From contig NZ_CP013251.1 of NCBI RefSeq assembly GCF_001583435.1, forward strand, positions 1,622,117-1,686,116: 64,000 nucleotides of DNA, in the 5' to 3' direction. The translations under genes and the position numbers were made by a program. A model generated the notes under the pieces. It was not told where the DNA came from and did no database searches. It worked only from the letters and a program-made list of their open reading frames with translations. Below, one piece after another: positions 14,831-62,927 of this stretch (position 1 is its first letter; the number at the start of each line of letters is the position of its first letter). This stretch comes from Endozoicomonas montiporae CL-33 (lineage in GTDB: Bacteria; Pseudomonadota; Gammaproteobacteria; Pseudomonadales; Endozoicomonadaceae).

Positions 14831-14846
14831 GACTCTAAATTCATAC

Positions 14847-14870: not shown

Positions 14871-14942
14871 AAAAATATGAGACAAACCTGAAAAGAAAAT
14901 TGGGCGCATATCTTATGAAACACGCCAGCTTCCGGCAAGAAC

Positions 14943-49085: not shown

Positions 49086-49867
49086 TGGCTATCTCCCTTA
49101 ACTCCATCAGTCGCGCCGCTGGCCTGAGTGCGCCCCGGGTGCTGATTTATGGCGATGCCGGTACCGGTAAAACGACAGTGGCCGCCGGTGCACCTGCCCC
49201 CATCTTTCTGCCCACTGAAGACGGCCTGGGAAAGCTTGTGGTTGATGCCTTCCCGATGCTCACCAGCTGGAGCAGTGTCATCGAAGCGTTGTCTGCTCTC
49301 TATCACGAAGAGCACCAGTTCCAGACCCTGGTGCTGGATAGCGTTGACCACCTGGAGCCGCTGATCTGGCAACAGGTCTGCATGGATCACAACAAAAGCT
49401 CTATCGAGGAGTTTGGTTACGGCAAGGGCTACGTGGAAGCCCTGACCCACTGGCGCACCCTGATGCAGTGGCTGAACGCCCTGCGTAATGAGAAAGGCAT
49501 GGCCATCATTCTGATCGCTCACGCGGAGATCAAGCGGTTTGAGTCACCGGAAGTCGACAGCTTTGACCGCTACCAGATCAAGTTGCATAAGCGAGCCTCT
49601 GAACTGGTTCAGGAAAGCATGGACTGTGTCCTGTTCGCCAACTACAAGACAGTCGTCCAGAAAGAAGACAAGGGGTTCGGGCAGACCAAGAGCCGTGGTG
49701 TGTCCACTGGGCAGCGTTTACTTTACACCGAAGCCCGCCCCGCTTTCGTAGCGAAAAACCGCTACTCACTTCCGACTGAGATTCCTATGTCCTGGGACGC
49801 ATTTAGTCAGGCACTCGGTCACTCATCCAACCCAACCCAAAACAACCCACAACCACAGGGAGAATAA
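49085..49867 (+). CDS. Phage RecA-like ATP-binding protein (AAA_24, Sak4-type)
   Basis: 260 aa. Walker A VLIYGDAGTGKTTVAA (residues 20-35), Walker B FQTLVLDSVDHLEP, and MAIILIAHAEIKRFESPEVD with a sensor His. This fits the AAA_24 / Sak4-like single-strand annealing or recombination ATPases of phages, which work with an SSB and a nuclease. The next two genes are exactly such candidates. It starts 1 bp overlapped with the preceding gene. Confidence 0.85.
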   Translation: MAISLNSISRAAGLSAPRVLIYGDAGTGKTTVAAGAPAPIFLPTEDGLGKLVVDAFPMLTSWSSVIEALSALYHEEHQFQTLVLDSVDHLEPLIWQQVCMDHNKSSIEEFGYGKGYVEALTHWRTLMQWLNALRNEKGMAIILIAHAEIKRFESPEVDSFDRYQIKLHKRASELVQESMDCVLFANYKTVVQKEDKGFGQTKSRGVSTGQRLLYTEARPAFVAKNRYSLPTEIPMSWDAFSQALGHSSNPTQNNPQPQGE

Positions 49868-49869
49868 CC

Positions 49870-50481
49870 ATGGCAGGTTTAGGATTTAAGGCTAACGACT
49901 ACAGTCCCGCGCAAGGGTTCGAGCCTCTTCCCAATGGTGATTACATCGCCATGATCACCGAGTCTGAGCTGAAGCACACCAGGGCAGGCACTGGCCAGTA
50001 CATCAAGTTCACTTGGACGGTGATGGATGGTGAATACTCCGGACGCAAGATCTGGAGCAATCACAACATCATCAACCCCAACCAGACGGCTGAAAAAATT
50101 GCCCGGGAAGAGATCAGCGCCATCGCTCACGCCATTGATCGTCCTGAAGCACGCACCACTGAAGAGATGGAAAACATTCCTTGCTCTATCACGTTGACTA
50201 TCAAGCAGGAAGACGGACGGGATCCTTCCAACGTCATCAAAAAATGGGAGGCCATTAACGGTGCGGGCTTTCCAGCCCAGCAAGCCCCAGCCCCTCAGCA
50301 ACCAGTGCCCGGACAGCAGCCTCAGCCTACAGCGACTCCAACAGCTCCACCGCAGCGAATGGCGCCAGCGCAAACGGCTCCTCAGCCCGCCACGCAAGCG
50401 CCGCCGGTAGCGCCTGCACCACAGGCACCGGCACAAACCACAGCACCGGCAGGTGCGCCCCCATGGGGACAGCGACAGTAA
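49870..50481 (+). CDS. DUF669 protein, probable single-stranded DNA-binding role
   Basis: 203 aa. N-terminal DUF669 domain (about residues 1-130; GDYIAMITESELKHTRAGTG, KFTWTVMDGEYSGRKIWSNH, NIINPNQTAEKIAREEISAI). A long Pro/Gln/Ala tail ends in GAPPWGQRQ, like the disordered tail of SSBs. DUF669 genes regularly follow AAA_24 ATPases in phages and are thought to bind ssDNA. That role is from context. Confidence 0.78.
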   Translation: MAGLGFKANDYSPAQGFEPLPNGDYIAMITESELKHTRAGTGQYIKFTWTVMDGEYSGRKIWSNHNIINPNQTAEKIAREEISAIAHAIDRPEARTTEEMENIPCSITLTIKQEDGRDPSNVIKKWEAINGAGFPAQQAPAPQQPVPGQQPQPTATPTAPPQRMAPAQTAPQPATQAPPVAPAPQAPAQTTAPAGAPPWGQRQ

Positions 50482-50541
50482 CGGACGACGCCCCTCTGAT
50501 ATTCAGAGGGGAAACCCCAATTAATGAAGGACTGCACCACC

Positions 50542-51591
50542 ATGAAAATTCCAGAAGCTGACAGCACCATTAAGCGCATCTACCGGCACTACGAAGCCAA
50601 TGCCGACAGCGGGTTCCGTCCACACCTTGGAGCCTCTTTAATCGGTAAGCCTTGCGCCCGTGCGCTCTGGTATGACTTCCGGTGGTGTACGCCTGCCAGT
50701 TTTGAAGGTCGCATGTTGCGGCTGTTTGAGACTGGGCAGGTTGCAGAGCCACGGTTCGTTAAGAATCTGGAAGGAGCTGGTGTAAAGGTCTACGAAGTGG
50801 ATCCACAAACCAACCAGCAGATACGGGTGAGTGCTTGCGCTGGGCACTTCGGCGGTTCCATGGATGGTGTCGGTATTGGCTTTGTGGAAGCGCCCAAGAC
50901 CTGGCACGTCATCGAGATGAAGACGCATTCCGAGAAGTCGTTCAAGGATTTGCAGAGTAAAGGCGTTGAGGAGTCCAAGCCCCAGCACTACGCACAAATG
51001 CAGGTGTATATGCACCTTGCTCACGATGGTCCCCTGACCAGAGCCTTTTATATTGCCGTGAACAAGAACACCGACGAGCTGTACGGCGAGCGCATTAAAT
51101 ACGACAAGAATAAGGCAACCGAACTGGTCAACAAGGCCGCCACCATTATCGCCAGTGACAGACCACTGGATAAATTGAACGAAGATCCTACTTGGTATCA
51201 GTGTAAGTTCTGTGATCATTCACCGGTTTGTCATGGTCAACAAGCACCAGCGGTTAACTGTCGAACCTGCCTGCACAGTACACCCGCAGACAATACCCAG
51301 TGGCACTGCGCCCGTTACAAGTGTGCCATCCCTGAAGAAAACCAGCGTACTGGCTGCCAGTCACATCTTTATATACCCGATCTGTTGTTTGGCTTCGCTG
51401 ACGTAGTTGACTCCGGCGAGTACTGGATTCGCTACAAGCTGAAAAGCACTGGTCAGGAGTTTGTGACAGGTGAAGCACCAGAGCAGTTGAGTTCCTGTGA
51501 GATTAAGGCAGTGGAGCAGAAAGAGTTACTGGGTGATCCGAACGTGCAGGGTCTTCGGGAGACGTTTCAGGCTGAGATTGTAAAGCGATAA
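50542..51591 (+). CDS. PD-(D/E)XK nuclease, RecB/Cas4-like
   Basis: 349 aa from ATG 50542 (MKIPEADSTIKRIYRHYEAN), with AAGGA upstream; ATG 50524 would add six residues without a ribosome site. LGASLIGKPCARALWYDFRW is the Cas4/RecB start with the first Cys. GGSMDGVGIGFVEAPKTWHV and IEMKTH supply the Asp and ExK. QHYAQMQVYMHLA is motif IV (QxxxY). Later Cys pairs (CKFCDHSPVC; CRTCLHS...CARYKC) suggest an Fe-S cluster plus an extra zinc site. It is probably the exonuclease partner of the recombination ATPase. Confidence 0.82.
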   Translation: MKIPEADSTIKRIYRHYEANADSGFRPHLGASLIGKPCARALWYDFRWCTPASFEGRMLRLFETGQVAEPRFVKNLEGAGVKVYEVDPQTNQQIRVSACAGHFGGSMDGVGIGFVEAPKTWHVIEMKTHSEKSFKDLQSKGVEESKPQHYAQMQVYMHLAHDGPLTRAFYIAVNKNTDELYGERIKYDKNKATELVNKAATIIASDRPLDKLNEDPTWYQCKFCDHSPVCHGQQAPAVNCRTCLHSTPADNTQWHCARYKCAIPEENQRTGCQSHLYIPDLLFGFADVVDSGEYWIRYKLKSTGQEFVTGEAPEQLSSCEIKAVEQKELLGDPNVQGLRETFQAEIVKR

Positions 51592-51617
51592 ATCACAACA
51601 ATAAGGATAAGCAACCC

Positions 51618-52265
51618 ATGCGATTAAGTATCAAATTAAAAGACGACATGCTGACCAATGCGCTTGAAAGCATCTTTGGTAAAGAAATGGATCGGCTTAA
51701 TAAGCGGCTGTTGAAAATGGTGGAATCAATGCTTCCACTGCATGAAAAAAGCATTGGTCCATGGAAGGAGATTAACAACGAATTTATCTCGCTTTCTCAA
51801 AATGCCAGTCTTGAGACTGAGAACAAGAACGGATATCACAAAACCCTTGAACTTAGGTTTGTAGATTCTGGATGTCGTAAGATTCGATACAGAGGTAATC
51901 CTGAAAACCTTTTAACCGATACTGTTCCATTACCTTACGCGGTTCCTTACCGAATCAGATACAGCAGCAGGGTTTACCTGCGACTAAGCACCCTTCTAAA
52001 GAAACATCCTGCCAAGCTTCGAAACATTGAAGAGCATACCAAGAAAGTTGAGCAGCTGATGGAACGGTTCAAAGAAACCCGCTTTGAACTTATCCAACTG
52101 ATGAACTCCTGCAAAACTGTCAAACAACTTCAGGAAGCATGGCCTGAAGGTATTGAGAAAGGAATCATTGAAATTCCCCAGCCACAGCAAACCCCGAACC
52201 TGCCAATCGCAGTACACAACCTGAATGAAATGGTGTTTGGCAATGACGGTAAGCGCGGAACATGA
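51618..52265 (+). CDS. Nmad5-like (nucleotide-modification-associated) protein
   Basis: 215 aa. It begins MRLSIKLKDDMLTNALESIF then GKEMDRLNKRL, the N-terminus I recall for the phage Nmad5 domain, predicted by genomic context to take part in DNA base modification. The middle has RFVDSGCRKIRYRGNPENLL and a C-terminal helical part. No catalytic residues are assigned for the family. It lies between the nuclease and helicase genes. No hypermodification enzymes (thymidylate-hydroxylase, glycosyltransferase) are seen nearby. Confidence 0.6.
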   Translation: MRLSIKLKDDMLTNALESIFGKEMDRLNKRLLKMVESMLPLHEKSIGPWKEINNEFISLSQNASLETENKNGYHKTLELRFVDSGCRKIRYRGNPENLLTDTVPLPYAVPYRIRYSSRVYLRLSTLLKKHPAKLRNIEEHTKKVEQLMERFKETRFELIQLMNSCKTVKQLQEAWPEGIEKGIIEIPQPQQTPNLPIAVHNLNEMVFGNDGKRGT

Positions 52266-52533
52266 GTTCCTGCGCTGGATCGACGAACAGGACGAATTAG
52301 AAAAACAACACGTTATCAACAGGCTATTCAGGGATAAAAACAATGAACAGAAAGTTCGAAGGCATTACACAGATTATCGAGGGGTACGGGTTCCATTCCG
52401 GCAACGTCAAGCCAGAAAAAAAGGGCGAGTTTATTGGCTTTTCTATCGAAAATGGCATCTGTCTGACAATGTTTGTCGAAGGCCGGTTTTTTCCGGAGGT
52501 CGATTACTGGTTGCCGATGACGGGGATCAATAA
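52243..52533 (+). CDS. Doubtful overlapping ORF
   Basis: 96 aa from ATG 52243, beginning MTVSAEHEFLRWIDEQDELE and KQHVINRLFRD, which looks like coding sequence. The rest overlaps the next gene by 190 bp in another frame and is Arg-rich. Either a short real gene lost its stop, or only the first 33 codons were once meaningful. Confidence 0.3.
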   Translation: MTVSAEHEFLRWIDEQDELEKQHVINRLFRDKNNEQKVRRHYTDYRGVRVPFRQRQARKKGRVYWLFYRKWHLSDNVCRRPVFSGGRLLVADDGDQ

Positions 52534-52729
52534 CGCGGTGACTCATCCCGAAGGGCTGGAGGATAAGTTTGCTGGTCAGGCGTTGTCAGCATTGCTAGGT
52601 CAAAGCAACCCCTTATTAAATTACTGCGAAGAGTTCTCTGAAAGAGAAGTAGCCAAGTTCGCTTTTGGTTATGCAGATGCGATGCTCGCTGAGCGCAAGG
52701 CCAGAAAGGAGCAGGACAATGGCCTTTAA
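52343..52729 (+). CDS. Early phage protein, unknown
   Basis: 128 aa. MNRKFEGITQIIEGYGFHSG at the start, beta-rich middle (EFIGFSIENGICLTMFVEGR, FFPEVDYWLPMTGINNAVTH), helical end (AKFAFGYADAMLAERKARKE). It overlaps the helicase start by 10 bp and so is translationally coupled to it. I do not recognise the family. GGGATAAAAACA precedes the ATG. Confidence 0.65.
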   Translation: MNRKFEGITQIIEGYGFHSGNVKPEKKGEFIGFSIENGICLTMFVEGRFFPEVDYWLPMTGINNAVTHPEGLEDKFAGQALSALLGQSNPLLNYCEEFSEREVAKFAFGYADAMLAERKARKEQDNGL

Positions 52730-54314
52730 TCTGCGCTGGTACCAGGGCGAAGCCATTGCGGCGATCTATGAGTACTTCGCCAGAGCGCAGGGCAACCCGC
52801 TGGTGTGCGTCAGCACCGGCGGGGGTAAGTCGGTCATTATCGCTTACTTCATTCAGCAGGTGATGGAAGCGTGGCCCAACCAGCGCATTCTGGTATTGGC
52901 TCATGTGAAAGAGATTCTGGAACAGAACTTTGACAAGATCACCAGCATCTGGCCATTGGCTCCCGCTGGTGTTTACTCCGCAGGCCTGAACCGTCGTGAT
53001 ACCGATTCCGCCATTCTGTTTGCGGGTATCCAGTCAGTTCACAACAAGGCGTTTGATCTGGGTGCGTTTGATCTGGTGATCGTGGACGAGTGCCACCTGA
53101 TCAACGCCGACAAAGACGACACCATGTACACCGGTTTCTTTCGGGATATGAAGCTGATGAACCCGAACGTTAAGGTGATTGGTTTTAGTGCTACACCATA
53201 CCGGATGAAATCAGGACTACTGACTGAAGGTGACAATGCCCTGTTTGATGAAGTGGTGTACGAAACTGATATTCAGCGGCTCATTGATGAAGGTTTTCTG
53301 TCACCACTGGTGACAAAGGGTGGTACTGAAAAAATTGATATGACCGGTGTTCGTACCCGTACCGGCGAGTTTGTCACCAAGGATCTGGAAGACGCTGTTC
53401 ATAAAAACGATGTCACCGAGAAAGCCGTGACCGAGATCCTTCACTACGGGAAGAACCGTAAAGCCTGGTTAATCTTCTGTGTCAGTGTCGCCCATGCGGA
53501 GGAAGTGAAAGAGCTGCTGGAGTATGAAGGCATTACTACTGAATGCGTCCATGGTGCTACACCCGCCATCGAGCGCGAGCGCATTCTCAGGGATTACAAA
53601 GCAGGCAAGATTCAGGCGCTCACCAGTCAGGGGGTTTTAACCACCGGTTTTGATGCGCCACTGACGGATATGATTGCTCTGTTGCGTCCTACCAAGTCGC
53701 CCGGCCTGTATGTGCAGATTATGGGCAGAGGCCTGCGGATCAGCCCGGAGACTGGCAAAACCGATTGTCTGGTTCTGGACTATGCCGGCAACGTCGAAAG
53801 ACACGGCCCCATTGACCGTATCAACGTAGACAGCATTCGTCGTAAGCGTAAGGGTGTAAAAGGTGAAGCCCCTATGAAGGAATGCCCGGAGTGCCACACC
53901 TTTGTACTGGCATTCGTTCCTGCTTGTCCGGATTGCGGTTATGTCTGGCCACAAAAGCCCCAGCATGAAGAAACCGCTTCGAATGCTGCCGTACTGGCTG
54001 ACCAGGTAGAGGCTGAATGGCACGACGTAGAAGACGTGTTCTACGACAAGCACGAGAAGAAAGACAAGCCGCCATCGTTGAAGGTGACATACCGTTGTGG
54101 CTTCGACTCTTTCAGTGAGTGGGTCTGCTTTGAGCACACAGGCTATGCCCAAAACAAGGCGCAGGTGTGGTGGTTCCAGCGAGCAGGCTTTCAGGCACCT
54201 TGCCCCCGTACCGTGGATGATGCCGTTGACCGGATCAGAGAACAACAAATTCCATTCCTGGCACCCAGCCGGATACAGGTCAAACCCGAAGGCCGTTTTC
54301 AGCGCATTCTGAAT

Positions 54315-55928
54315 GGGTGAAAGTCTCATACTGACCATTTTTTCTGGGCTTGCCGTCCGTGGTTTATACAGCAGCTACAAATTTTCTCTGGACTTACATA
54401 GGAACGGCCAAACACCGCTATGATCGTTACTGTAAAAGATACCGCAACAGTGAAAGGCCGCCCCGATGCAAGTATGTCAGCCACTAGCTGAAGCCGCCAA
54501 TTTTTCTTGTCATGCTATCCAACAGCTTGAGCAAAAACTGGCCGTTCTTCGTCAGGAACACAGCCCAATCAAGCACTTTGAAGACTATGAAGGTGAGATC
54601 CATAAACTCTTTATCGAAGCAGAGCAAAGCGTTCTGGCAGAAGACCTGACCGGGCTTGATATTGACGTTCCTGCGATTGAGGTAAGCGGTGTCTGTTACC
54701 ATCGGGTGTTGCGATCTTCAGAAACTTATCAATCCGCTGTCGGCCCTGTCCGGGTTTTGCGTACGCTCTATCGTAACGGTAAGGATCACTCTATCATCCC
54801 TTTGGAGCTACAGGCAGGTATTGTAGAGGGGTATTGGACACCAAAAGCAGCTAAACAAGCTGTCTGGATGGTTGCGCAAATGCCTCCCGGAGAGGCTAAA
54901 AGCCTACTTGATCTGATAGGGAACATGACGCCCTCGGAAAGCTCTCTGGCCAGACTACCCAAAAAGTTCAATGCGCAGTGGGAACCCAATAGGGAAGCCT
55001 TTGAAGACTTTCTCTGGGAAAGCGTCAAGGTTCCTGAAGAAGCTGTGACTGCCGCCGCTTCTCTTGATGGCGTCATGTTGCCGATGAAAGATGGTAAACG
55101 TCAGGAAAAGCGGGAACAGAATAGAGTCGATGGCAAGCGAACCCGTGGCCCTGCTGGCTGTCAGGAGGCCAGTTGTGGAACATTGTCGTTTTACGATGCA
55201 CAGGGTGAACGCCTCTCAACGGTCAGGATGAGTCGAATGCCTGAAAGCAAGAAAGTGACTTTGAAACAATCACTCTCCGCACTCCTGAGCGAAGCTCTTC
55301 GACAGAGGCCAGATCTGACGCTTGTTAAAGTCGCTGATGGGGCAAAAGACAACTGGACCTACCTTGCCAATGAACTCCCTGAAGGTCACGAGGTTGTAGA
55401 CTTCTATCATGCCGCAGAGCACCTGAAGAAAGCGTTTGACCTGTCCTATGGTGAAAACAGCAACAAATCCAGAGAAAAGTTCATCACCTATCGCCACATC
55501 CTCAAAGAGGAGCCCGAAGGTGTTGAAAAAGTCATCAAAGCTCTGGCTTACCAGCATAAACGACACCCTCGTCGATCGAAGTTGAAAACAGAGCTGGAGT
55601 ACTTCAGAAGTAATCGAACCCGCATGAACTATGCTGAACACTTGTCGCACAACTTGCCAATAGGCTCAGGGGTTATTGAGGCTACTTGTAAAACCTTGGT
55701 AACGCAGCGAATGAAGTGTTCTGGAATGAGGTGGCGGCATCCCGGAGGCCAAGGTATTTTGACAGCAAGGTCATTAATTCAGAGTGGCATGTTCGACAAT
55801 GGCTGGAAGTTACTGGCGGTGACCTACTGCGCCAAGGTCACGGAAGTGGGTATGGACAATGTCATCCCATTCCCCATGCAGAAAGGTGACTTGGAATTAT
55901 AGTACCAGTCAATATGAGACTTTCACCC
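54315..55928 (+). mobile_element. ISKra4-type insertion sequence, 1614 bp
   Basis: Terminal inverted repeats GGGTGAAAGTCTCATACTGAC (left) and GGGTGAAAGTCTCATATTGAC (right, complement). The 8-bp target duplication TTCTGAAT lies at 54307-54314 and 55929-55936. One intact transposase frame inside. Confidence 0.92.
54466..55902 (+). CDS. ISKra4-family transposase
   Basis: 478 aa, intact. N-terminal FEDYEGEIHKLFIEAEQSVL and VCYHRVLRSSETYQSAVGPV. The catalytic part starts with ASLDGVMLPMKDGKRQEKRE (first Asp), then VKVADGAKDNWTYLANELPE and GHEVVDFYHAAEHLKKAFDL (second Asp with His/Glu). LPIGSGVIEATCKTLVTQRM then KCSGMRWRHPGG closes with the catalytic Glu. These blocks are diagnostic for ISKra4. 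The frame is complete and the target duplication perfect, consistent with a recent insertion. Confidence 0.92.
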   Translation: MQVCQPLAEAANFSCHAIQQLEQKLAVLRQEHSPIKHFEDYEGEIHKLFIEAEQSVLAEDLTGLDIDVPAIEVSGVCYHRVLRSSETYQSAVGPVRVLRTLYRNGKDHSIIPLELQAGIVEGYWTPKAAKQAVWMVAQMPPGEAKSLLDLIGNMTPSESSLARLPKKFNAQWEPNREAFEDFLWESVKVPEEAVTAAASLDGVMLPMKDGKRQEKREQNRVDGKRTRGPAGCQEASCGTLSFYDAQGERLSTVRMSRMPESKKVTLKQSLSALLSEALRQRPDLTLVKVADGAKDNWTYLANELPEGHEVVDFYHAAEHLKKAFDLSYGENSNKSREKFITYRHILKEEPEGVEKVIKALAYQHKRHPRRSKLKTELEYFRSNRTRMNYAEHLSHNLPIGSGVIEATCKTLVTQRMKCSGMRWRHPGGQGILTARSLIQSGMFDNGWKLLAVTYCAKVTEVGMDNVIPFPMQKGDLEL

Positions 55929-56161
55929 TTCTGAATCACGATCTGACACCTGTTATCGGTACACCCAGCGAGTGGAACGACAACCCAGCCACTAAACCCA
56001 AACAGATGGACATCACTCCTGCAGAGGATGAATTTGCAGACGCCCGGGCAGCCTTGGGTGATGACGACGATGACGAGTGGAACAAAACCATGGACGACCT
56101 GTGGAGTTCAGCCGGACAGGTTGTAGAAGACGACAAGGTACCGTTTTAGGAGTTTCGGATT

Positions 56162-56311
56162 ATGGACAGCAAGAAAATAAGACAGGCTTTGCAGCTGGCG
56201 CAGGAATACATCCTGATGCCGGAAGGCCACAAACCCAATCGGCAGGTAGTGATCAGGGAGTTAAGAGCCGCCATCGAGGAAACCAAGAAGCAGGAGAAGG
56301 ATCATGAATAA
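56162..56311 (+). CDS. 49-aa phage protein, unknown
   Basis: MDSKKIRQALQLAQEYILMP to EKDHE, 49 aa, helical. AGGAG lies about 10 bases before the ATG. Its last codons overlap the start of the next gene. Likely a small early-operon protein; no family recognised. Confidence 0.6.
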   Translation: MDSKKIRQALQLAQEYILMPEGHKPNRQVVIRELRAAIEETKKQEKDHE

Positions 56312-56510
56312 CCGAAACGCACTCCAGAACATCGCTGAAGATCTGGTTCGTATGGAAGGCATCAGCCGTTCAATCGTTAGCGATAACCAGAGAGTATGGC
56401 GAGAAGGTTCAGTTCTGATTTTCAGTTCAGGGCCTAATCGAATTTATCTTGCCAGCAGTTGCTCGGCTGCAGACCGGGCAATTAAAAAGCTCATCGCGGC
56501 ATCACGGTAG
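56304..56510 (+). CDS. 68-aa phage protein, unknown
   Basis: MNNRNALQNIAEDLVRMEGI then VWREGSVLIFSSGPNRIYLA. A small alpha/beta protein. GGAGAAGG precedes the ATG. It overlaps the previous gene by 8 bp and is followed 6 bp later by the next, so it is within one tight operon. No family recognised. Confidence 0.6.
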   Translation: MNNRNALQNIAEDLVRMEGISRSIVSDNQRVWREGSVLIFSSGPNRIYLASSCSAADRAIKKLIAASR

Positions 56511-56516
56511 TTGAGT

Positions 56517-56786
56517 ATGGACGTACCAGTGTTTGCCACCAAACGGGACCTGGATCTGATCCATGTACGGAAGCTGGCGAAGAACTTCCGCAAAGACCAA
56601 CTGTCTGATGCTGACGGCGAACAACTGGCTGGCGATCTGGAAGCGTTAAACCGGTTAAAGACCAGCAGCCTGATCAGTAACTACGAGTCGATTCGATGTG
56701 AGAAACGGATCTACAAACGTTATCAGGCATTGGTTCGGGAGTATGGGCATAAAGTCAGGAAGCAGGCAGATGGAAATAACGTATGA
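56517..56786 (+). CDS. Phage protein, unknown (89 aa)
   Basis: MDVPVFATKRDLDLIHVRKL, helical and basic (CEKRIYKRYQALVREYGHKV). The ATG at 56517 is preferred over a TTG at 56511. Its 3' end overlaps the next gene by 17 bp. No family recognised. Confidence 0.6.
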   Translation: MDVPVFATKRDLDLIHVRKLAKNFRKDQLSDADGEQLAGDLEALNRLKTSSLISNYESIRCEKRIYKRYQALVREYGHKVRKQADGNNV

Positions 56787-57021
56787 CAAACACGGGCGGA
56801 TGAATTATCACCCGGACTTTCATTTTAATCAGAAGAAACCGTGGACGACGACAGACGAAAAATTCCTGATTGATATGTACGAAAGAATTGGTCCTGATCA
56901 GGTTTCTTTGTATTTGGGTCGCACTATTCACACGGTTATGACCAGGGCGTATCAATTAAGAAAAAATGGATTGATGCCAAAAAGGTCAATTAAGAAGCAT
57001 TTTCCCAGGAATGGTAATTGA
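56770..57021 (+). CDS. Myb/SANT-like HTH protein
   Basis: 83 aa from ATG 56770 (MEITYDKHGRMNYHPDFHFN), with AGGAAGCAGG upstream. The core PWTTTDEKFLIDMYERIGPD then QVSLYLGRTIHTVMTRAYQL has the spaced Trp and helix pattern of a Myb/SANT-type or homeodomain-like HTH found in small phage DNA-binding proteins. Role unknown; a regulator or origin-binding factor is possible. Confidence 0.65.
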   Translation: MEITYDKHGRMNYHPDFHFNQKKPWTTTDEKFLIDMYERIGPDQVSLYLGRTIHTVMTRAYQLRKNGLMPKRSIKKHFPRNGN

Positions 57022-57031
57022 GGATCAAATA

Positions 57032-57412
57032 ATGAAAATAGAGTTAAAGGAATGTCCGCTTTGTGGGAGTAAGGCGTATTTAGATAGAAAAACATCAGCT
57101 GTTCATTGCTCCAACTGTTGTACAAGATATCTGGCCTCTGCTGTTAAATACCCGGACTTCGATCAAGCTGCTATTGATCATTGGAATAAACGTTATTTCC
57201 CGGAAGGTTGTACACCAGCTGATGCCAGACACTTGCGGGAGGCTAATTGGGATTTGGCTAAAGAGAAAGAAAAGATGGAGTTACTTCTTTTTAAGTTTGT
57301 AACCGAGTACGGCGAGCGTGAAACAGAGAAAAACTCAGACGAGTTAAAGCCAGTAGGAAAACAACGCTGTTTAATTATGCGTCAGTGTATGCGTGAGTTG
57401 GGGATCAAATAA
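57032..57412 (+). CDS. Lar-like zinc-ribbon protein (restriction alleviation type)
   Basis: 126 aa from ATG 57032 (MKIELKECPLCGSKAYLDRK), with GAGG upstream. Zinc ribbon CPLCGSKAYL ... VHCSNCC followed by AAIDHWNKRYF matches the Lar family motif (CPFCG ... C..C ... A...WN.R). Lar of the Rac prophage relieves EcoKI restriction. Many phages carry such proteins, and only some act that way. The C-terminus is extended by a helical segment. Confidence 0.75.
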   Translation: MKIELKECPLCGSKAYLDRKTSAVHCSNCCTRYLASAVKYPDFDQAAIDHWNKRYFPEGCTPADARHLREANWDLAKEKEKMELLLFKFVTEYGERETEKNSDELKPVGKQRCLIMRQCMRELGIK

Positions 57413-57843
57413 TGAAAACACCTTTCAATCCAAGCACTAGAGCAGCCAAACGAGTTAAAAACCCATTGCCAAAACCGGAGAGCTGTAATTGTTGTGGTGG
57501 TTCCGTTGAGATTGTTCGTAACAGTGAAATATACAACGGTCGTAGCTTTGGTCAATGGCCGTGGGTTTATCTCTGCCGCAGTTGTGGCGCTTACGTTGGC
57601 ATGCACCCGCTGACAGATATTCCATTAGGCACACTGGCAAATAGGGAAACACGCATAGCCAGAAAGCGCAGCAAGGCACCTTTTGAACTTCTGCATAAAA
57701 CCGGAAAGATGACCCGGTCTGAAGCCTACCGTCGTCTGGCTGAAAAACTGGGTATTGAAAAAGGGCAGTGCCATTTCGGCTGGTTTGATGTGGCGATGTG
57801 TGAGCGGGCTGAAGTGGCAGTCAGGGAAATACTTTTGGATTAG
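57412..57843 (+). CDS. Zinc-finger phage protein (DUF3268-like)
   Basis: 143 aa. CNCCGGSVEIVRNSEIYNGR then WPWVYLCRSCGAYVGMHPLT, a four-Cys zinc finger with the GRxxGxWPxxYxCxxCxAxVGxHP signature I recall for DUF3268. The end KMTRSEAYRRLAEKLGIEKG is followed by CHFGWFDVAMCERA. Start overlaps the previous stop (TAATG). It is the last ordinary gene of the early operon; the cassette array begins 30 bp after its stop. Confidence 0.8.
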   Translation: MKTPFNPSTRAAKRVKNPLPKPESCNCCGGSVEIVRNSEIYNGRSFGQWPWVYLCRSCGAYVGMHPLTDIPLGTLANRETRIARKRSKAPFELLHKTGKMTRSEAYRRLAEKLGIEKGQCHFGWFDVAMCERAEVAVREILLD

Positions 57844-57902
57844 AGCTGGAGAGAAGCCTGCCCTTACCCGATTTATCTGCCGATTGGCAGGGAGCTGAAA
57901 AC

Positions 57903-58133
57903 ATGGACACCAACAAACCGAGAAACGTAGATCATGCGTTCATCACGAACGGACAGGAGAACCCCGACGAGCTTATTACTCTTTTGAACGATGCAGCCAA
58001 GCAAATACGAGAATTGGAGCAAGAGAATAAGCAGATAAATGAAAAGATCGAGAATGCAAAGAACTGTCTGGTAGCTGCCGCTATCGGTGATCCGTTTGAA
58101 GTTATTCAGATAACTTTGGACATACTCGAATAA
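57903..58133 (+). CDS. Cassette 1 protein: coiled-coil, unknown
   Basis: 76 aa. MDTNKPRNVDHAFITNGQEN, then a heptad region (LNDAAKQIRELEQENKQINE, KIENAKNCL) and a hydrophobic end. GGGAG lies 8 bases before the ATG. Cassette 1 spans 57873-58187: it starts TTATCTGC and its end box is GCAGATAAC, exact complements. The base before the first TT is T rather than the usual G, so the left edge is atypical. It is the first cassette after the early operon. Confidence 0.7.
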   Translation: MDTNKPRNVDHAFITNGQENPDELITLLNDAAKQIRELEQENKQINEKIENAKNCLVAAAIGDPFEVIQITLDILE

Positions 58134-58136
58134 GGC

Positions 58137-58194
58137 AGATAACGCCGTTTTCACCTGCCGCCGGAGGCGGTCTGGTGGAAAACTTTGGTAGGTG
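58137..58194 (+). other. attC-like site 1 (short type)
   Basis: R'' AGATAAC (58137-58143), arm GTTTTCACC, GC-rich hairpin head (CCGCCGGAGGCGG), arm GGTGGAAAAC, end GGTAGGT (58187-58193). The right end belongs to cassette 2 and reads GGT instead of GTT. Confidence 0.85.
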
Positions 58195-58226
58195 GCTGAT
58201 TGGTACAAAGTAGAGGGTAGAATAGA

Positions 58227-58505
58227 ATGGAACAACGAATAGTTTGTGCAGCAGTTGAGATTGACGGCTTTATTGTTACTGGCTACAGGCATTACGATCA
58301 GATAATGAATGCAGTTATCGACAAAGTTTTTACGGAAAAACAATTTAATCAGTTGATGCGTGATGATCTGATACGTGATGGCTTCATTGATAATCGTGGT
58401 GCATTTCTTGACCGAAAAGCAGCATGGGAAATTGCATTAAAAAATAAACAGATTATTAGAGACTTGCCAAGCGCAGGTGCGTTGTTTAGTGAAAACCTTT
58501 ATTAA
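58227..58505 (+). CDS. Cassette 2 protein: phage-type family, unknown function
   Basis: 92 aa. MEQRIVCAAVEIDGFIVTGY then RHYDQIMNAVID, with DGFIDNRGAFLDRKAAWEIA later. The pattern (I(I/V)CAAI...G.RH.D.IM ... QGF(I/V)D..G.FL.R.EA..IA...) is one I recall from many tailed-phage genomes, with no assigned function. Finding it as an integron-style cassette is unusual. Cassette 2 covers 58188-58559. Its start box GGTAGGTGGC and end box GCCACATACC pair with one mismatch. Confidence 0.75.
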   Translation: MEQRIVCAAVEIDGFIVTGYRHYDQIMNAVIDKVFTEKQFNQLMRDDLIRDGFIDNRGAFLDRKAAWEIALKNKQIIRDLPSAGALFSENLY

Positions 58506-58507
58506 GC

Positions 58508-58567
58508 CACATACCGCCGTTTTCACCTGCCGCCGAAGGCGGTCTGGTGGAAAACTTTGTTATACGC
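58508..58567 (+). other. attC-like site 2 (short type)
   Basis: R'' ACATACC (58509-58515, a CC ending instead of AAC), arms GTTTTCACC/GGTGGAAAAC, head CCGCCGAAGGCGG, R' GTTATAC (58559-58565). Confidence 0.88.
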
Positions 58568-58593
58568 AAAATGACAAACCCAATGGGGAAAAC

Positions 58594-58824
58594 ATGGAAA
58601 GAATTGAAGGTAGTGTGCAAGTAAAAGTAATGCCAGGAATGAAAGCAAGAATTAACCCTGAAGAAATTGAAGGAAAGAAGAACAAAGGCAAAGAGTTTGT
58701 AATTGCCAGTGAGCCTAGAAACCTTTGCGGAACTATAATTGTCGCATTAGATAATTTAGACGGGAGTCGTTTCAGCCCTGCATATGATTTGTCGATGCTT
58801 GAGATAACTGACGCAAGCGTATAA
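58594..58824 (+). CDS. Cassette 3 protein, unknown (copy A)
   Basis: 76 aa. MERIEGSVQVKVMPGMKARI then NPEEIEGKKNKGKEFVIASE and NLCGTIIVALDNLDGSRFSP. A small beta-rich, basic protein; no family recognised. GGGG/GGAAAAC precedes the ATG. Its stop TAA lies inside the attC R'' box (GTATAAC), so the recombination site ends the frame. Cassette 3 covers 58560-58889 and is duplicated as cassette 7. Confidence 0.72.
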   Translation: MERIEGSVQVKVMPGMKARINPEEIEGKKNKGKEFVIASEPRNLCGTIIVALDNLDGSRFSPAYDLSMLEITDASV

Positions 58825-58897
58825 CGCCTGCTTCAGCCGCCGAACGAAGTGAGGTCGGGTGAGCGCAGCGAACGAACTGGAAGCATTTGTTAGGTGC
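58819..58897 (+). other. attC-like site 3 (long type)
   Basis: R'' GTATAAC (58819-58825), arms TGCTTCAG/CTGGAAGCA with one extra C on the right arm, 40-nt variable head, R' GTTAGGT (58889-58895). Confidence 0.92.
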
Positions 58898-58932
58898 TTT
58901 GGCACGATGCCTGAAAATTAACGGAAAAAATT

Positions 58933-59181
58933 ATGTTTGATCTTGATCTTGAACCCGTCGAAGAAGCATCTATCAATGAGGATGCCGCTAAAATCATTAT
59001 GCAACTTGAAGCATGGTTTGAGTCTCGAACTGACAAACTTCAGGAGATTGCCAGAAGTCAGCCAGACACAGTAAGGATCAATGACTTTGAAAACAGCGAC
59101 CCTGATTTTATCAATGGTTTTAAAGCTGGACTCATTGCAGCAGTGGAAGTTATGGGAAAATTCCCTGTAAACGTGGAGTAG
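58933..59181 (+). CDS. Cassette 4 protein, unknown
   Basis: 82 aa, acidic. MFDLDLEPVEEASINEDAAK, then IIMQLEAWFESRTDKLQEIA and INGFKAGLIAAVEVMGKF. Mostly helical, no domain recognised. The ribosome site is weak (ACGGAAAAAATT). Cassette 4 covers 58890-59242, begins TTAGGTGC and ends with box GCACATAAC (one mismatch to its start). Confidence 0.7.
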   Translation: MFDLDLEPVEEASINEDAAKIIMQLEAWFESRTDKLQEIARSQPDTVRINDFENSDPDFINGFKAGLIAAVEVMGKFPVNVE

Positions 59182-59187
59182 CGGGAG

Positions 59188-59250
59188 GCACATAACGCCT
59201 GCTTCAGTGGCGTGCCGTAGGCACGTCCGCTGGAAGCATTTGTTAGATGC
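59188..59250 (+). other. attC-like site 4 (long-arm type, short head)
   Basis: R'' ACATAAC (59190-59196), arms TGCTTCAG/CTGGAAGCA, head TGGCGTGCCGTAGGCACGTCCG, R' GTTAGAT (59242-59248). Confidence 0.92.
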
Positions 59251-59278
59251 ATGGCAGAGGACTTAATTAGGGTGAAAA

Positions 59279-59491
59279 ATGAGCAAACTGCTTGGTAAAT
59301 ACGACTACTGGATTGTAGATCAAGACGATGAACTTGTTTGGCAAGGAGAATGTCGGGATCAAGCCAGAGAGGTCATCGACCGCATTATTGATAGGGAAGA
59401 TGGGTATTACTATCTGTGTGAACGGGACGTGGGAATAATTATGGAAGGTGGCGACCTTGATAAAGAACCGGAACCCATCAGTAGCAACTAA
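59279..59491 (+). CDS. Cassette 5 protein, unknown
   Basis: 70 aa, very acidic. MSKLLGKYDYWIVDQDDELV, then WQGECRDQAREVIDRIIDRE and YYYLCERDVGIIMEG. It could be a small beta-hairpin/helix protein or DNA mimic; no family recognised. AGGGTG precedes the ATG. The TAA stop falls at the attC R'' box (CAACTAAC). Cassette 5 covers 59243-59555. Confidence 0.7.
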   Translation: MSKLLGKYDYWIVDQDDELVWQGECRDQAREVIDRIIDREDGYYYLCERDVGIIMEGGDLDKEPEPISSN

Positions 59492-59563
59492 CGCCTGCTT
59501 CAGCCGCCGCCGAAAGGCGGTCGGGTGAGCGCAGCGAACGAACTGGAAGCATTTGTTATGTGC
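59486..59563 (+). other. attC-like site 5 (long type)
   Basis: R'' AACTAAC (59486-59492), arms TGCTTCAG/CTGGAAGCA, head with CCGCCGAAAGGCGG, R' GTTATGT (59555-59561). Same head as site 7. Confidence 0.92.
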
Positions 59564-59589
59564 ATGGTACGGAGTAAAGGAGAAGAAAA

Positions 59590-59934
59590 ATGAAATTGGT
59601 TGCAGGTACAGATAGAGTACATGATGATTTTTTGCACGAATCTTTATTGAAAGCCTTTGTTTGGGGAGCTGTCGATGAAGGCAAGGCCGTTGGTCAGTTA
59701 GTTCTAACTGAAGAACTGGGTATTGATCCTGAATATGATTACCCTCCTGGTTCAATTCTTCCGGGTGTATGTATGTATCAATTTAACTTGGATGAAGTGG
59801 TTGAATCTTTCATTGAGCTATATGAAGTTTTGCCCGACGGGAAGTTCCAAGACAAAAACCACGATAAAGCAAAACAGATGATTGCTAATTTAAGAAAGCT
59901 GGCAGACGAAGTAGAAACCCGAATAAGCACATAA
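59590..59934 (+). CDS. Cassette 6 protein, unknown (copy A)
   Basis: 114 aa, acidic. MKLVAGTDRVHDDFLHESLL, KAFVWGAVDEGKAVGQLVLT, CMYQFNLDEVVESFIELYEV, then a helical end. No family recognised. AAAGGAGAAG lies 5 bases before the ATG, the strongest ribosome site in the array. The stop TAA lies in the R'' box (ACATAAC). Cassette 6 covers 59556-59979 and is repeated as cassette 8. Confidence 0.74.
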   Translation: MKLVAGTDRVHDDFLHESLLKAFVWGAVDEGKAVGQLVLTEELGIDPEYDYPPGSILPGVCMYQFNLDEVVESFIELYEVLPDGKFQDKNHDKAKQMIANLRKLADEVETRIST

Positions 59935-59987
59935 CGCCGTTTTCACCTGCCGCCGAAGGCGGTCTGGTGGAAAACTTTGTTATACGC
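59927..59987 (+). other. attC-like site 6 (short type)
   Basis: R'' ACATAAC (59929-59935), arms GTTTTCACC/GGTGGAAAAC, head CCGCCGAAGGCGG, R' GTTATAC (59979-59985). Confidence 0.9.
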
Positions 59988-60013
59988 AAAATGACAAACC
60001 CAATGGGGAAAAC

Positions 60014-60244
60014 ATGGAAAGAATTGAAGGTAGTGTGCAAGTAAAAGTAATGCCAGGAATGAAAGCAAGAATTAACCCTGAAGAAATTGAAGGAAAGAAG
60101 AACAAAGGCAAAGAGTTTGTAATTGCCAGTGAGCCTAGAAACCTTTGCGGAACTATAATTGTCGCATTAGATAATTTAGACGGGAGTCGTTTCAGCCCTG
60201 CATATGATTTGTCGATGCTTGAGATAACTGACGCAAGCGTATAA
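60014..60244 (+). CDS. Cassette 7 protein, unknown (copy B of cassette 3)
   Basis: 76 aa, protein identical to cassette 3. The DNA from the cassette start (59980) through the ORF is also the same. Only the attC head downstream differs: cassette 7 ends with the head seen in site 5. The stop again lies in R'' (GTATAAC). Cassette 7 covers 59980-60308 and sits between the two copies of the cassette 6 type. Confidence 0.72.
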   Translation: MERIEGSVQVKVMPGMKARINPEEIEGKKNKGKEFVIASEPRNLCGTIIVALDNLDGSRFSPAYDLSMLEITDASV

Positions 60245-60316
60245 CGCCTGCTTCAGCCGCCGCCGAAAGGCGGTCGGGTGAGCGCAGCGAACGAACTGGA
60301 AGCATTTGTTATGTGC
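60239..60316 (+). other. attC-like site 7 (long type)
   Basis: R'' GTATAAC (60239-60245), arms TGCTTCAG/CTGGAAGCA, head with CCGCCGAAAGGCGG, R' GTTATGT (60308-60314). Confidence 0.92.
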
Positions 60317-60342
60317 ATGGTACGGAGTAAAGGAGAAGAAAA

Positions 60343-60687
60343 ATGAAATTGGTTGCAGGTACAGATAGAGTACATGATGATTTTTTGCACGAATCTTTAT
60401 TGAAAGCCTTTGTTTGGGGAGCTGTCGATGAAGGCAAGGCCGTTGGTCAGTTAGTTCTAACTGAAGAACTGGGTATTGATCCTGAATATGATTACCCTCC
60501 TGGTTCAATTCTTCCGGGTGTATGTATGTATCAATTTAACTTGGATGAAGTGGTTGAATCTTTCATTGAGCTATATGAAGTTTTGCCCGACGGGAAGTTC
60601 CAAGACAAAAACCACGATAAAGCAAAACAGATGATTGCTAATTTAAGAAAGCTGGCAGACGAAGTAGAAACCCGAATAAGCACATAA
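60343..60687 (+). CDS. Cassette 8 protein, unknown (copy B of cassette 6)
   Basis: 114 aa, identical in protein to cassette 6, with the same leader and ribosome site. The difference is in the attC head (CCAGCCGAAGGCTGG instead of CCGCCGAAGGCGG, a compensated change) and in the following R'. Cassette 8 covers 60309-60734. Confidence 0.74.
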   Translation: MKLVAGTDRVHDDFLHESLLKAFVWGAVDEGKAVGQLVLTEELGIDPEYDYPPGSILPGVCMYQFNLDEVVESFIELYEVLPDGKFQDKNHDKAKQMIANLRKLADEVETRIST

Positions 60688-60742
60688 CGCCGTTTTCACC
60701 TGCCAGCCGAAGGCTGGTCTGGTGGAAAACTTTGGTAGGTTC
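60680..60742 (+). other. attC-like site 8 (short type)
   Basis: R'' ACATAAC (60682-60688), arms GTTTTCACC/GGTGGAAAAC, head CCAGCCGAAGGCTGG, end GGTAGGT (60734-60740), again GGT instead of GTT. Confidence 0.87.
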
Positions 60743-60773
60743 ACGAATTGCACGAAAAAAAAGGAAAACAAAA

Positions 60774-61100
60774 ATGCCAAAATATAGAAAGAAGCCTGTT
60801 GTCGTTGAAGCAAGCCAGTGGTTCAAAAATGGCGACCATCCAAATGACAACTGCCAGATACTTGAAACAGGACAGATATTAACTGAGGGTCATGTGGTTC
60901 GGGGCTACCGAACTCCTGATTTAGACGCAGAAGTTGATTGTCAATACTGCAACAACATCATGGAAGTTCACGGCTGGATAGACACAATGGAAGGCGGTCA
61001 CATTGTCTGCCCTGCCGACTGGATTATTACTGGCATTAAAGGTGAATATTATCCTTGCAAGCCAGACATATTTGAACAAACGTATGAACTCGCTGAGTGA
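60774..61100 (+). CDS. Cassette 9 protein: phage-type KPVVVEA family
   Basis: 108 aa from ATG 60774 (MPKYRKKPVVVEASQWFKNG), with AAAGGAAAA upstream. The N-terminus and the ending CPADWIITGIKGEYYPCKPD then IFEQTYELAE match a family very common in tailed phages (KYRKKPV.(I/V)EA.QW ... GDWII.G..GE.YPCKPDIFE.TY). Function unknown. Two Cys pairs in the middle (CQYCNN) are extra. Cassette 9 starts at 60735 (box GGTAGGTTC). The matching end box GAACATACC lies at 61099-61107, overlapping the stop, but the rest of that attC is missing. Confidence 0.82.
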   Translation: MPKYRKKPVVVEASQWFKNGDHPNDNCQILETGQILTEGHVVRGYRTPDLDAEVDCQYCNNIMEVHGWIDTMEGGHIVCPADWIITGIKGEYYPCKPDIFEQTYELAE

Positions 61101-61259
61101 ACATACCGCTTAGTAGTTACCCAAGGCAGGAATTACAGTTATTTATCCGTATTTCCTGATCAGGCAACATAACGCCTGCTTCAGCCCATACATGGATAAT
61201 GCACGTCATTATCCATCAGATATAATCATGGATAAGCAGTCGTAATCCGGAAGGTTATA
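61099..61259 (+). other. Decayed attC remnants at the array end
   Basis: The R'' box GAACATACC (61099-61107) is not followed by an arm. Further on ACATAACGCCTGCTTCAG (from about 61169) starts a long-type site. Its head holds a hairpin TGGATAATG/CATTATCCA, and its right arm is degenerate (CCGGAAGGTTATAA at about 61247-61260). The array ends at the integrase gene, which reads toward it. Confidence 0.6.
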
Positions 61260-61261
61260 AT

Positions 61262-62500
61262 TCATTGCCAGATGGGGCGGTCAATGCCATCAATATTTTC
61301 TGAAATCTGCATAAGCCTGCACCACCATTTAGAATAAGCCTCGGCCTGTTCATCAATGTATAGGTGTTGGTCATAGGTTTGCCACTCACCTGGGAGCTTA
61401 TGCCCAAGCATGATCTCGGCAACATGGGGAGCGGTCAGAGTAGACCACTTGGTACGGGCTGTTTTCCTGAGGTCATGTACTGACCAGTGCTCCATTTCAA
61501 TGTCCTTATTTTTTCTAAGCCACTGCATAATGTTGTATGGAAGGGGTAGGGGTGAGGATTTTCCCATCATTTTGTTAGAGCCACTATTAGTGAACACATA
61601 AGAGCTATCCTTGCTTAGCTGTACTGCTTGCTCAATCAATGGCTTTATTTCCGGGATGATGGGACGGATAAGTGGCATTCCCGTACTGGAACCTAATTTG
61701 TGATCACTGGGCGGTACAGTCCAGATCATATTATCAAGGTCAAATCCACTCTTCTTGCTCTTTCTAAGCTCACCGTTTCGGCACCCAAAAACGAGACACA
61801 GTATCAAGAATAATTTGTTCTTATGGGACATTCTTGATTTGTGAATAGCTTCCCAGACCTGTCTGATCTCACTATCAGAAAGAGAGCGCTTTATAACGCC
61901 TTTTTTGATCTGAAGATCAGCTTTAGCGTTAATAGCGGCTAAAGGATTTGTGTCGATAATGTGTCTGGTTACAGCCCAGTTAAGCATCTGTTTGGCGTTT
62001 ACCAGTATCCGTTCAGCGATGGCCGGAATGGTTTCAACAAGCTTTTCCAGAATATTCAGCCAGTCCATGGTTGTAACTTGCTTGGCTGGAAGGTGTCCGA
62101 TTTTTGGAAGAATATGGATTTCAAAGGATCGGTTAATTTCGATGTGACTCTGTTTGCTTTTCTTGCAGTAGCTTTTGTACCAGAGGCGGTAGAGATTCTC
62201 CAAAGTGGTTGCGGTAATGATCGCTTGTTTCTCTAACTGTCGTACCACTGCGGGATCGTGACCTTGTTCCAGCTTTCTCCTGAGCCGAGTATTTTCCTCT
62301 CTGGCTTCCTTTAAAGTGATTAAGGGGTAACTGCCAATATCCAAGCGCTTAGGTTTACCTGCATAGCGATATCGTATTTGAAAGACAATTTTCCCTTGCG
62401 GCGTCACCCGTACACTCAGCCCGTCTCTGTCTGCGACTTCGTCCCGCTTGTCTCTTTTCTTGCCGTTATTGGCTTTAAGCCAGGTGTCCGTGATAGCCAT
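61262..62500 (-). CDS. int: Prophage tyrosine integrase (P4-type, DUF4102 N-terminus)
   Basis: 412 aa from ATG 62500 (MAITDTWLKANNGKKRDKRD), with AGGAG 7 bases upstream; ATG 62506 would leave one base of spacing. The N-terminal DUF4102 arm-binding domain has RDGLSVRVTPQGKIVFQIRY and RLDIGSYPLITLKEA. The core-binding domain is at about 100-190. The catalytic domain has Arg in FGCRNGELRK, HDLRKTARTKW, LGHKLPG and Tyr in WQTYDQHLY. It recombines attP with the prfC attB at the cores found at 14763 and 62703. It lacks the extra domain of IntI, so it is not the cassette integrase. Confidence 0.93.
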   Translation of the reverse strand: MAITDTWLKANNGKKRDKRDEVADRDGLSVRVTPQGKIVFQIRYRYAGKPKRLDIGSYPLITLKEAREENTRLRRKLEQGHDPAVVRQLEKQAIITATTLENLYRLWYKSYCKKSKQSHIEINRSFEIHILPKIGHLPAKQVTTMDWLNILEKLVETIPAIAERILVNAKQMLNWAVTRHIIDTNPLAAINAKADLQIKKGVIKRSLSDSEIRQVWEAIHKSRMSHKNKLFLILCLVFGCRNGELRKSKKSGFDLDNMIWTVPPSDHKLGSSTGMPLIRPIIPEIKPLIEQAVQLSKDSSYVFTNSGSNKMMGKSSPLPLPYNIMQWLRKNKDIEMEHWSVHDLRKTARTKWSTLTAPHVAEIMLGHKLPGEWQTYDQHLYIDEQAEAYSKWWCRLMQISENIDGIDRPIWQ

Positions 62501-62512
62501 GTACATACTCCT

Positions 62513-62626: not shown

Positions 62627-62764
62627 TCAGATTAGAGGCTTTTTGCCTGTTTTTCTAGGCTTAAATGCATTTTGTTGAACTGTGGTGCTGTTTAGGTGGT
62701 TGTCAGGGTGGGAGATGATTGCGAAAGTACGGCGATTTGCCACTTCCTGAGCCAGTGCGCTCAT
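62627..62764 (-). pseudogene. prfC: Displaced native 5' end of prfC
   Basis: From ATG 62764 the frame reads [20 protein letters not shown], the normal RF3 N-terminus, to the attachment core (62703-62719). It then runs into phage DNA (NHLNSTTVQQNAFK) and stops at 62627, giving a 45-aa peptide without function. A TATAAT on the minus strand (62807-62802) probably belongs to the original prfC promoter, now cut off from the gene body 48 kb away. Confidence 0.88.
62703..62719. other. attR core of the prophage
   Basis: TCAGGGTGGGAGATGAT, identical to attL at 14763-14779. To its left is phage DNA; to its right the native prfC 5' end. Confidence 0.88.
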
Positions 62765-62927
62765 TGATACCTGCCAAGAATACTCGAAAAAAACTGGCTG
62801 CATTATATAGGCTCTGGCGGCTAAAACCAGTGATCTGTTTTGAACGATCCATTTCAGGCAGGCTGTTTTCTTCAATACTCACGCCGATAAGCTGTTTAAT
62901 TAAAGTGAGTAAAGATAACGCATATCC

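Follow-up and report, generated by a model that had tools for sequence, protein, structure and literature searches.

The 64,000-nucleotide window analysed here (Endozoicomonas montiporae CL-33, NZ_CP013251.1, positions 1,622,117 to 1,686,116) contains a 48-kb prophage integrated in prfC. At 57872-61184 this prophage carries a real integron cassette array without an integrase, that is, a cluster of attC sites lacking integron integrase (CALIN). The eight complete attC all fall on the minus strand, the nine genes all on the plus, so that the array genes are antiparallel to their attC and in line with the phage early operon. The best explanation of the whole, to which a probability of roughly 0.88 is assigned, is that cassettes moved by an integron integrase came to reside in the early operon of a temperate phage, from which they would be expressed by read-through.

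Architecture of the cassette array

The array is built of nine short plus-strand open reading frames (ORFs; 70-114 aa) that fill bodies of 251-381 bp after leaders of 31-44 nt. Eight complete attC stand between the nine ORFs, and the ninth site is a half-site at 61163-61184. In five of the nine ORFs (3/7 distinct) the stop codon, a TAA, falls within the R box. Two or more clustered attC with no intI nearby define a CALIN, and here eight attC are packed into 2.6 kb; a complete integron would have intI and attI beside the array, where the adjoining recombinase is a phage integrase. The components are listed below in window coordinates, E being the expectation value of the covariance model for attC and of the family match for PHROG families.

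57872-58143, plus: cassette body C1; ORF 57903-58133 (76 aa) fills the body; own attC reduced to the R'' box at 57872-57881; R boxes pair at 9/10
58135-58195, minus: attC of C2; E 2.8e-8
58187-58515, plus: cassette body C2; ORF 58227-58505 (92 aa); core triplets GGT/ACC, not GTT/AAC; phrog_839, E 1e-23
58507-58567, minus: attC of C3; E 5e-9
58559-58825, plus: cassette body C3; ORF 58594-58824 (76 aa) fills the body; exact repeat
58817-58897, minus: attC of C4; E 3.4e-14
58889-59196, plus: cassette body C4; ORF 58933-59181 (82 aa); phrog_12368; recurs identically in the host chromosomal array and as an 89% relative in another prophage
59188-59250, minus: attC of C5; E 4.8e-15
59242-59492, plus: cassette body C5; ORF 59279-59491 (70 aa) fills the body
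59484-59563, minus: attC of C6; E 8.2e-17
59555-59935, plus: cassette body C6; ORF 59590-59934 (114 aa) fills the body
59927-59987, minus: attC of C7; E 2.3e-12
59979-60245, plus: cassette body C7, copy of C3 (328-nt exact repeat)
60237-60316, minus: attC of C8; E 8e-17
60308-60688, plus: cassette body C8, copy of C6 (463-nt exact repeat)
60680-60742, minus: attC of C9; E 2e-9
60734-61107, plus: cassette body C9; ORF 60774-61100 (108 aa); core triplets GGT/ACC; phrog_419, E 3e-30; ends as in two host cassettes
61108-61184: remnant; at 61163-61184 a half attC consisting of one R arm and one L arm

Each of the eight sites displays the attC architecture: paired R''/R' and L''/L' arms, unpaired central spacers, a variable head, and an extra base located solely in the L'' arm. 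An L''-specific extra G on the bottom strand is a feature of attC described by Bouvier et al. (PMC2727003). The core triplets are AAC/GTT in five of the eight attC, and the other three have GGT or ACC because the C2 and C9 bodies end in GGT/ACC. A structural scanner that requires A[AC]C / G[TG]T cores, spacers of nearly equal length, pairing between the L arms and a single extra base detects eight sites in a 3.5-kb stretch; over 200 first-order Markov resamplings it averages 0.095 sites, with at most 1 in any of them. The covariance model was trained on 23 attC picked for diversity among scanner-passing sites of six related genomes (G002, G003, G004, G007 and G008 of the genus, G017 of the family), with none from E. 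montiporae CL-33; pair covariation in this set reaches 0.366, against 0.140 after shuffling and 0.03-0.07 in slid controls. Applied to the window, the model returns exactly the eight attC (E 8e-17 to 2.8e-8), followed by a next match at E 0.11. The R boxes pair within their own cassette at 61/70 positions over the seven distinct cassettes (permuted mean 47.7), a value reached in 4/5040 permutations.

As an observation in its own right, GGT/ACC replaces GTT/AAC at both ends of four cassettes with pairing kept, namely C2, C9 and, in the host chromosomal array, L133:1755-2064 and L133:10699-11007. A protein search with the 114-aa C6 product recovered nothing but itself, and no PADLOC match for a defence function appeared at 0.01 among ten proteins (seven from the array, one from the second prophage and two from the host array).

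The original prediction for this DNA had placed an array of attC-separated cassettes inside a prfC prophage, between the early operon and the phage integrase, with R''/R' boxes complementary across each cassette. All of this is confirmed, by the 17-bp repeat that bounds the prophage as well as by the R-box permutations and by the covariance analysis that it had proposed, carried out with our own model. Its nine cassettes in one direction correspond to nine plus-strand ORFs, but the attC run antiparallel to them and only seven cassettes are distinct; the attC-like sites said to separate them are complete in eight cases, the last being only half a site. The L arms do pair except for one extra base, and this base sits in the arm that sets the attC to the minus strand.

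Orientation of attC and genes

The unpaired base, the spacers and the covariance model all assign the attC to the minus strand (8/8), opposite to the genes (9/9). C2, C4 and C9 match phage families (PHROG) in plus frames, and the plus ORF of C4 differs from its relative in the second prophage at 21 positions, of which 16 are third codon positions and which change 5 amino acids; the genes therefore run against their attC and with the early operon. The strand convention is controlled by Shewanella phage M16-3, whose intI is annotated: scanner and model put attC on the cassette-gene strand in both of its arrays, divergent from intI. In G004 and G003, likewise, intI stands at the array end demanded by the inferred attC orientation. 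According to Bouvier et al. (PMC2727003), only the L'' box has the unpaired G, and both strand and crossover can shift when the extrahelical bases are inverted.

Pairs of similar cassettes delimit the mobile unit. Among 12 pairs with identical bodies, the upstream attC is better matched in 11 and equal in one. The 242 pairs with at least 85% body identity, which come mostly from a few G004 repeat families and are not independent, have the upstream attC better matched in 166 and worse in 48, with 28 ties, at a mean identity of 0.97 versus 0.87. A better-kept upstream attC is the cassette unit predicted for a minus-strand attC. An early reading, in which the duplicated blocks arose by R''-side crossover or top-strand recombination, was dropped: the attC lie on the minus strand and the units are canonical.

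Orientation was counted in the relatives over fetched stretches of their arrays, with numbers that depend on the thresholds. By the stricter rule, clear antiparallel/co-oriented cassettes number 6/0 of seven scored in this prophage (two of the six being copies), 9/2 in the host chromosomal array, 8/20 in G004, and 0/14 in G003, G007, G008, G009 and G017 together. In the prophage, C4 is unclear by length and was settled by its substitution pattern, while C1 and C9, each with one attC incomplete, are unscored. Bodies left out as unclear are one in the prophage, five in the host array, 62 in G004, 12 in the main G003 region, three in G007, one in G008, two in G009 and three in G017; another G003 region yielded three unclear bodies, and G001, G006 and two further G003 regions no scorable body. 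With the caveat that cassettes of one genome are not independent samples, Fisher's test gives p 7.5e-5 for the seven distinct prophage cassettes against the relatives' 8/34, p 9.6e-4 against G004 alone, and p 0.0054 for the five distinct cassettes left without C1 and C9 against G004. Under a looser first rule, G004 has 27 antiparallel and 50 co-oriented of 93, and the host array 14 and 5 of 20, two of these five co-oriented ORFs being transposases by eye.

Prophage setting, sister prophage and host links

The prophage is delimited by an exact 17-bp direct repeat, and the array lies inside these bounds. The att repeat, an integrase and structural genes (terminase, portal, capsid, sheath and tape-measure) together identify a temperate phage. 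Its relevant features are:

13244-14962, minus: prfC ORF; TIGR00503, E 8e-267
14763-14779: left att core of the prophage, 17 bp, lying in the 5' part of prfC; repeated exactly, in direct orientation, at 62703-62719
57412-57843, plus: DUF3268 zinc finger gene, last ordinary early-operon gene before the array; Pfam PF11672 6e-39, phrog_1934 4e-50
61192-61216: perfect hairpin that by eye resembles a terminator, although the terminator scan does not list it; similar hairpin 3' of the phrog_419 gene in the sister prophage
61262-62506, minus: phage integrase, a tyrosine recombinase with Arm-DNA-bind_3, not an integron integrase; phrog_1 3e-66, PF13356 9e-22
62627-62875, minus: ORF with a displaced PrfC-like N-terminus, recognised by eye, beside the second att core
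62703-62719: second prophage att core, 17 bp; exact direct repeat of 14763-14779

A sister prophage in G002 (L215) has the early operon in common, in five pieces of 75-85% DNA identity (window 49076-57839), and also matches 69 nt at the end of C9. Its DUF3268 gene (6623-7060) occupies the same place as in the window; 20 nt behind it lies a phrog_419 gene (E 1.7e-30; 46/88 residues as in C9), beyond which come a similar hairpin, a small ORF taken for an excisionase, and another integrase. The covariance model detects no attC in this locus at E<=0.01. This operon without attC places the array, as a predicted insertion, between the DUF3268 gene and the hairpin, with L215 as the putative empty-site relative. 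Viral loci with C9 relatives number 355, of which 80, including this phage, were kept. In the 79 further loci and 16 loci with the DUF3268 gene, the scanner gives four strict matches versus one in one shuffle: on these counts the C9-family gene is no cassette in those other phages. Among the 16 other viral contigs with the DUF3268 gene, a C9 relative lies several kb off in three, and no other array protein is present. Related phages carrying the same genes without paired boxes, named in the original prediction as evidence against it, are thus found in small part only, in the C9 relative of the sister prophage.

In the host genome the model yields at least 50 attC matches at E<=0.01 (150 of 1404 candidates scored): at least 28 in a chromosomal array at 1577967-1610033, eight in the prophage, three in a second prophage (4.658 Mb) and 11 in other places. 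Small attC groups outside the main array and these two prophages are seen at 0.818, 1.96, 2.878 and 3.713 Mb of the same contig (G000:C1). C4 together with its attC recurs in the chromosomal array, exactly over 376 nt and at 98% over 415; the alignment starts three bases before the crossover base and the match ends where the head of the downstream attC diverges. The second prophage (L177:11979-12760) holds its three attC, plus-strand cassette ORFs and an 89% relative of C4 in a stretch with genes of phage type (repressor, exonuclease, RdgC) on one side and an integrase of its own, unlike that of the first prophage, on the other. C9 has its ends and its gene family in common with two host chromosomal cassettes. 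The search for the same attC types and cassettes elsewhere, put forward in the original prediction as a check, is answered by these matches.

No IntI exceeds the family cut-off in the assembled host genome, the two best-matching proteins being XerC-like and XerD-like by eye. A run of at least 9,658 N, from 1612342 to at least 1621999, extends right of the last chromosomal attC and just left of the window, covering the intI position expected from the G004 layout; the genome paper states a 9.8-kb gap near 1.6 Mbp (PMC4781883). The absence of IntI cannot be concluded because these N lie where intI is expected: intI and attI may be hidden there, and the host array that adjoins the gap need not be a CALIN. 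That no IntI was in sight, as originally proposed, is accordingly true of the assembled sequence only, also after the search of the remaining genome. Counting CL-33, an IntI match over the cut-off occurs in 7/10 genomes of the genus and attC of the same class in 10/10.

Upstream of the array, a transposase gene (54466-55902) interrupts the phage helicase ORF, which is a single ORF (3242-5098) in L215 versus 52665-54320 and 55859-56149 in the window. A transposase of the same sequence, by eye, is seen in the chromosomal array (L133:17226-18662) and at L007:42-1187. A prophage record in IMG/VR is identical over the parts compared (L029, L030) and is taken as the same strain. PHAST 'intact' prophages are given for CL-33 at 1624494-1699528 (region 1) and 4621590-4662332 (PMC4781883). 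A search for integrase relatives within the genus did not recover the same phage, the best identity being 33%, and an Rfam scan of 50-64 kb found nothing in the array, its single match (56053-56138, E 0.58) being below threshold. Apart from these, the window contains five tandem tRNA-Pro (tgg) genes at 2348-2940 with a period of 129 bp.

Proposed cassette movement, competing explanations and known systems

C7 is a copy of C3 and C8 a copy of C6. The exact C3/C7 repeat (58515-58842 / 59935-60262) begins at 58515, the predicted crossover base; the exact C6/C8 repeat (59489-59951 / 60242-60704) begins three bases ahead of it, and both of these blocks, like the C4 match, include a complete attC upstream of the gene. 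In the proposed mechanism, a segment of Endozoicomonas-type cassettes would have been put into the early operon of the temperate phage, between the DUF3268 gene and the terminator-like hairpin. The cassette unit would be an attC and the gene downstream of it, in gene direction, and the IntI of the present or an earlier host would act on the folded attC bottom strand, which is the plus strand of the window. At least three cassettes would have been moved as units by this integrase, two copied within the array and one exchanged with the chromosomal array. The phage would keep those cassettes whose genes run with the early operon. Read-through of the cassettes from this operon is probable because the short leaders hold at most a ribosome-binding-like stretch, with no room for a promoter. 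The promoter scan gives five sites versus 10.4 in shuffles and the terminator scan three versus 6.1; the array contains on the plus strand one promoter-like site (58200-58228) and one terminator-like site (58462-58478).

Several points weigh against this mechanism. The array ends are damaged, with only an R'' box on the left and half an attC on the right; the original insertion was therefore not a clean attC x attI event, or has decayed since. For the entry of arrays into phages, Qi et al. (2023) propose off-target homologous or illegitimate recombination (PMC9892861). The terminator-like site on the plus strand stands inside C2, the chromosomal match of C4 has one mismatch in the L arm of its attC, and 48 of the 242 similar cassette pairs, not independent of one another, contradict a unit with attC upstream. 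The assembled host genome lacks an IntI over the cut-off, and judging from the sequences the exchange between chromosome and prophage could have run in either direction. The phage itself may be defective, because its helicase ORF is broken by the transposase gene.

Some of these points favour a different explanation, in which homologous recombination or replication slippage between similar hairpins duplicated and swapped the cassettes, with no integron integrase, the array being a fossil that travels with the phage. The missing IntI, the two truncated ends and the pairs with a better-kept downstream attC are compatible with it, as are blocks of 20-50 nt that the attC share and that could serve as homology. 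It is nevertheless unlikely, though not negligible: the C3/C7 block begins at the predicted crossover base, those of C6/C8 and C4 (at 98%) three bases before, each block holds a complete attC upstream of its gene, none of the 12 identical-body pairs keeps the downstream attC better, and R boxes pair inside each cassette. It is very improbable that the antiparallel arrangement is false, with the true cassette genes on the minus strand and the plus ORFs due to chance. C4 does have a minus-strand ORF of 91 aa, longer than its plus ORF, but the PHROG matches of C2, C4 and C9 and the C4 substitution pattern are in plus frames, and the plus ORFs fill the bodies after short leaders, with TAA inside the R box in 5/9. 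Hardly credible at all is that common hairpins between genes, such as terminators or stem-loops of the phage, only look like attC here. The plain hairpin behind the C9 relative of the sister prophage and the abundance of this gene family in phages without attC (79 of the 95 loci scanned have C9 relatives) might suggest so, but a model trained on foreign sites gives eight matches, the sites of the relatives covary, and arrays of such sites adjoin intI in canonical layout in G003 and G004.

Beyond integrase-mediated movement into the early operon, a wider and rather doubtful reading is that phages of the genus carry a cassette form of their own, with the gene against the attC, and that prophages act as a nursery feeding cassettes to the host integron. 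If so, the antiparallel gene would fit the phage operon, the strand recombined by IntI would be the displaced non-template strand of a transcribed operon, and early transcription or replication of the phage would serve at once to express the cassettes and to open them to recombination. Prophages would then turn phage accessory genes into cassettes for the chromosomal integron, and antiparallel orientation in the host array (9 against 2 among clear cassettes) would betray an origin in phages. The notion that PHROG rates set antiparallel cassettes apart as phage genes was considered and is unsupported: in G004, with ten of each hand-chosen from 26 antiparallel and 42 co-oriented ORFs, 5/10 antiparallel versus 6/10 co-oriented match at 1e-5, rates that give the nursery reading no support. 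In the host array, 3/10 antiparallel proteins match PHROG at 1e-3. Families differ by impression only, with a Lar-like protein once in each array and phrog_419 among the antiparallel. For the source of integron cassette genes and their travel between genomes, an identical cassette in prophage and chromosome, a relative in a second prophage and the uninterrupted operon of a congener form one informative set. Phage-to-integron traffic, or the reverse, is testable in a culturable coral symbiont; antiparallel orientation is a simple feature to count across genomes, and it leads one to expect that the phage operon, not an integron promoter, drives expression.

Among known systems, the nearest are the phage CALINs of Qi et al. 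(PMC9892861), who report 17 CALINs, three complete integrons and a single intI standing alone among 10,705 phage genomes, and who find 5/6 attC of virulent phages active with IntI1. Phage-borne arrays, thought rare in the original prediction, are thus uncommon but already described. Those CALINs are alike in that their attC arrays lack an integron integrase, and they occur in virulent as well as temperate phages; in the two records checked for strand (M16-3 with two arrays, TJE1 with a single site) attC and neighbouring genes are co-oriented, whereas the montiporae array is entirely antiparallel, has an identical cassette in the chromosome of the same host, and has a putative empty site in a sister phage. 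Prophages of Vibrio anguillarum and Shewanella M16-3 likewise carry cassettes of host integron type; according to the same paper, the former lie at or inside the host integron and M16-3 has intI, unlike the montiporae prophage, which sits in prfC, apart from the host array. The sedentary chromosomal integrons of Endozoicomonas (G004:C2 about 631-713 kb, and G003) have the same attC class and the usual intI/attC layout, but are large (at least 113 and at least 97 covariance matches per genome), possess intI, and have most clear genes co-oriented. At 630-728 kb of G004:C2 (L137-L141), a cassette of roughly 469 bp in which no gene is clear is repeated in 20 copies of 91-100% identity.

In the open-licence literature searched, a weak source for absence, neither this array nor any phage cassettes running against their attC were found described. 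Antisense promoters are reported inside Vibrio cassettes (PMC11014356), and transcription against the attC direction is therefore not in itself new. In conclusion, phage CALINs are already known, and what is new is the antiparallel orientation, the sharing of cassettes within one genome and the empty-site relative.

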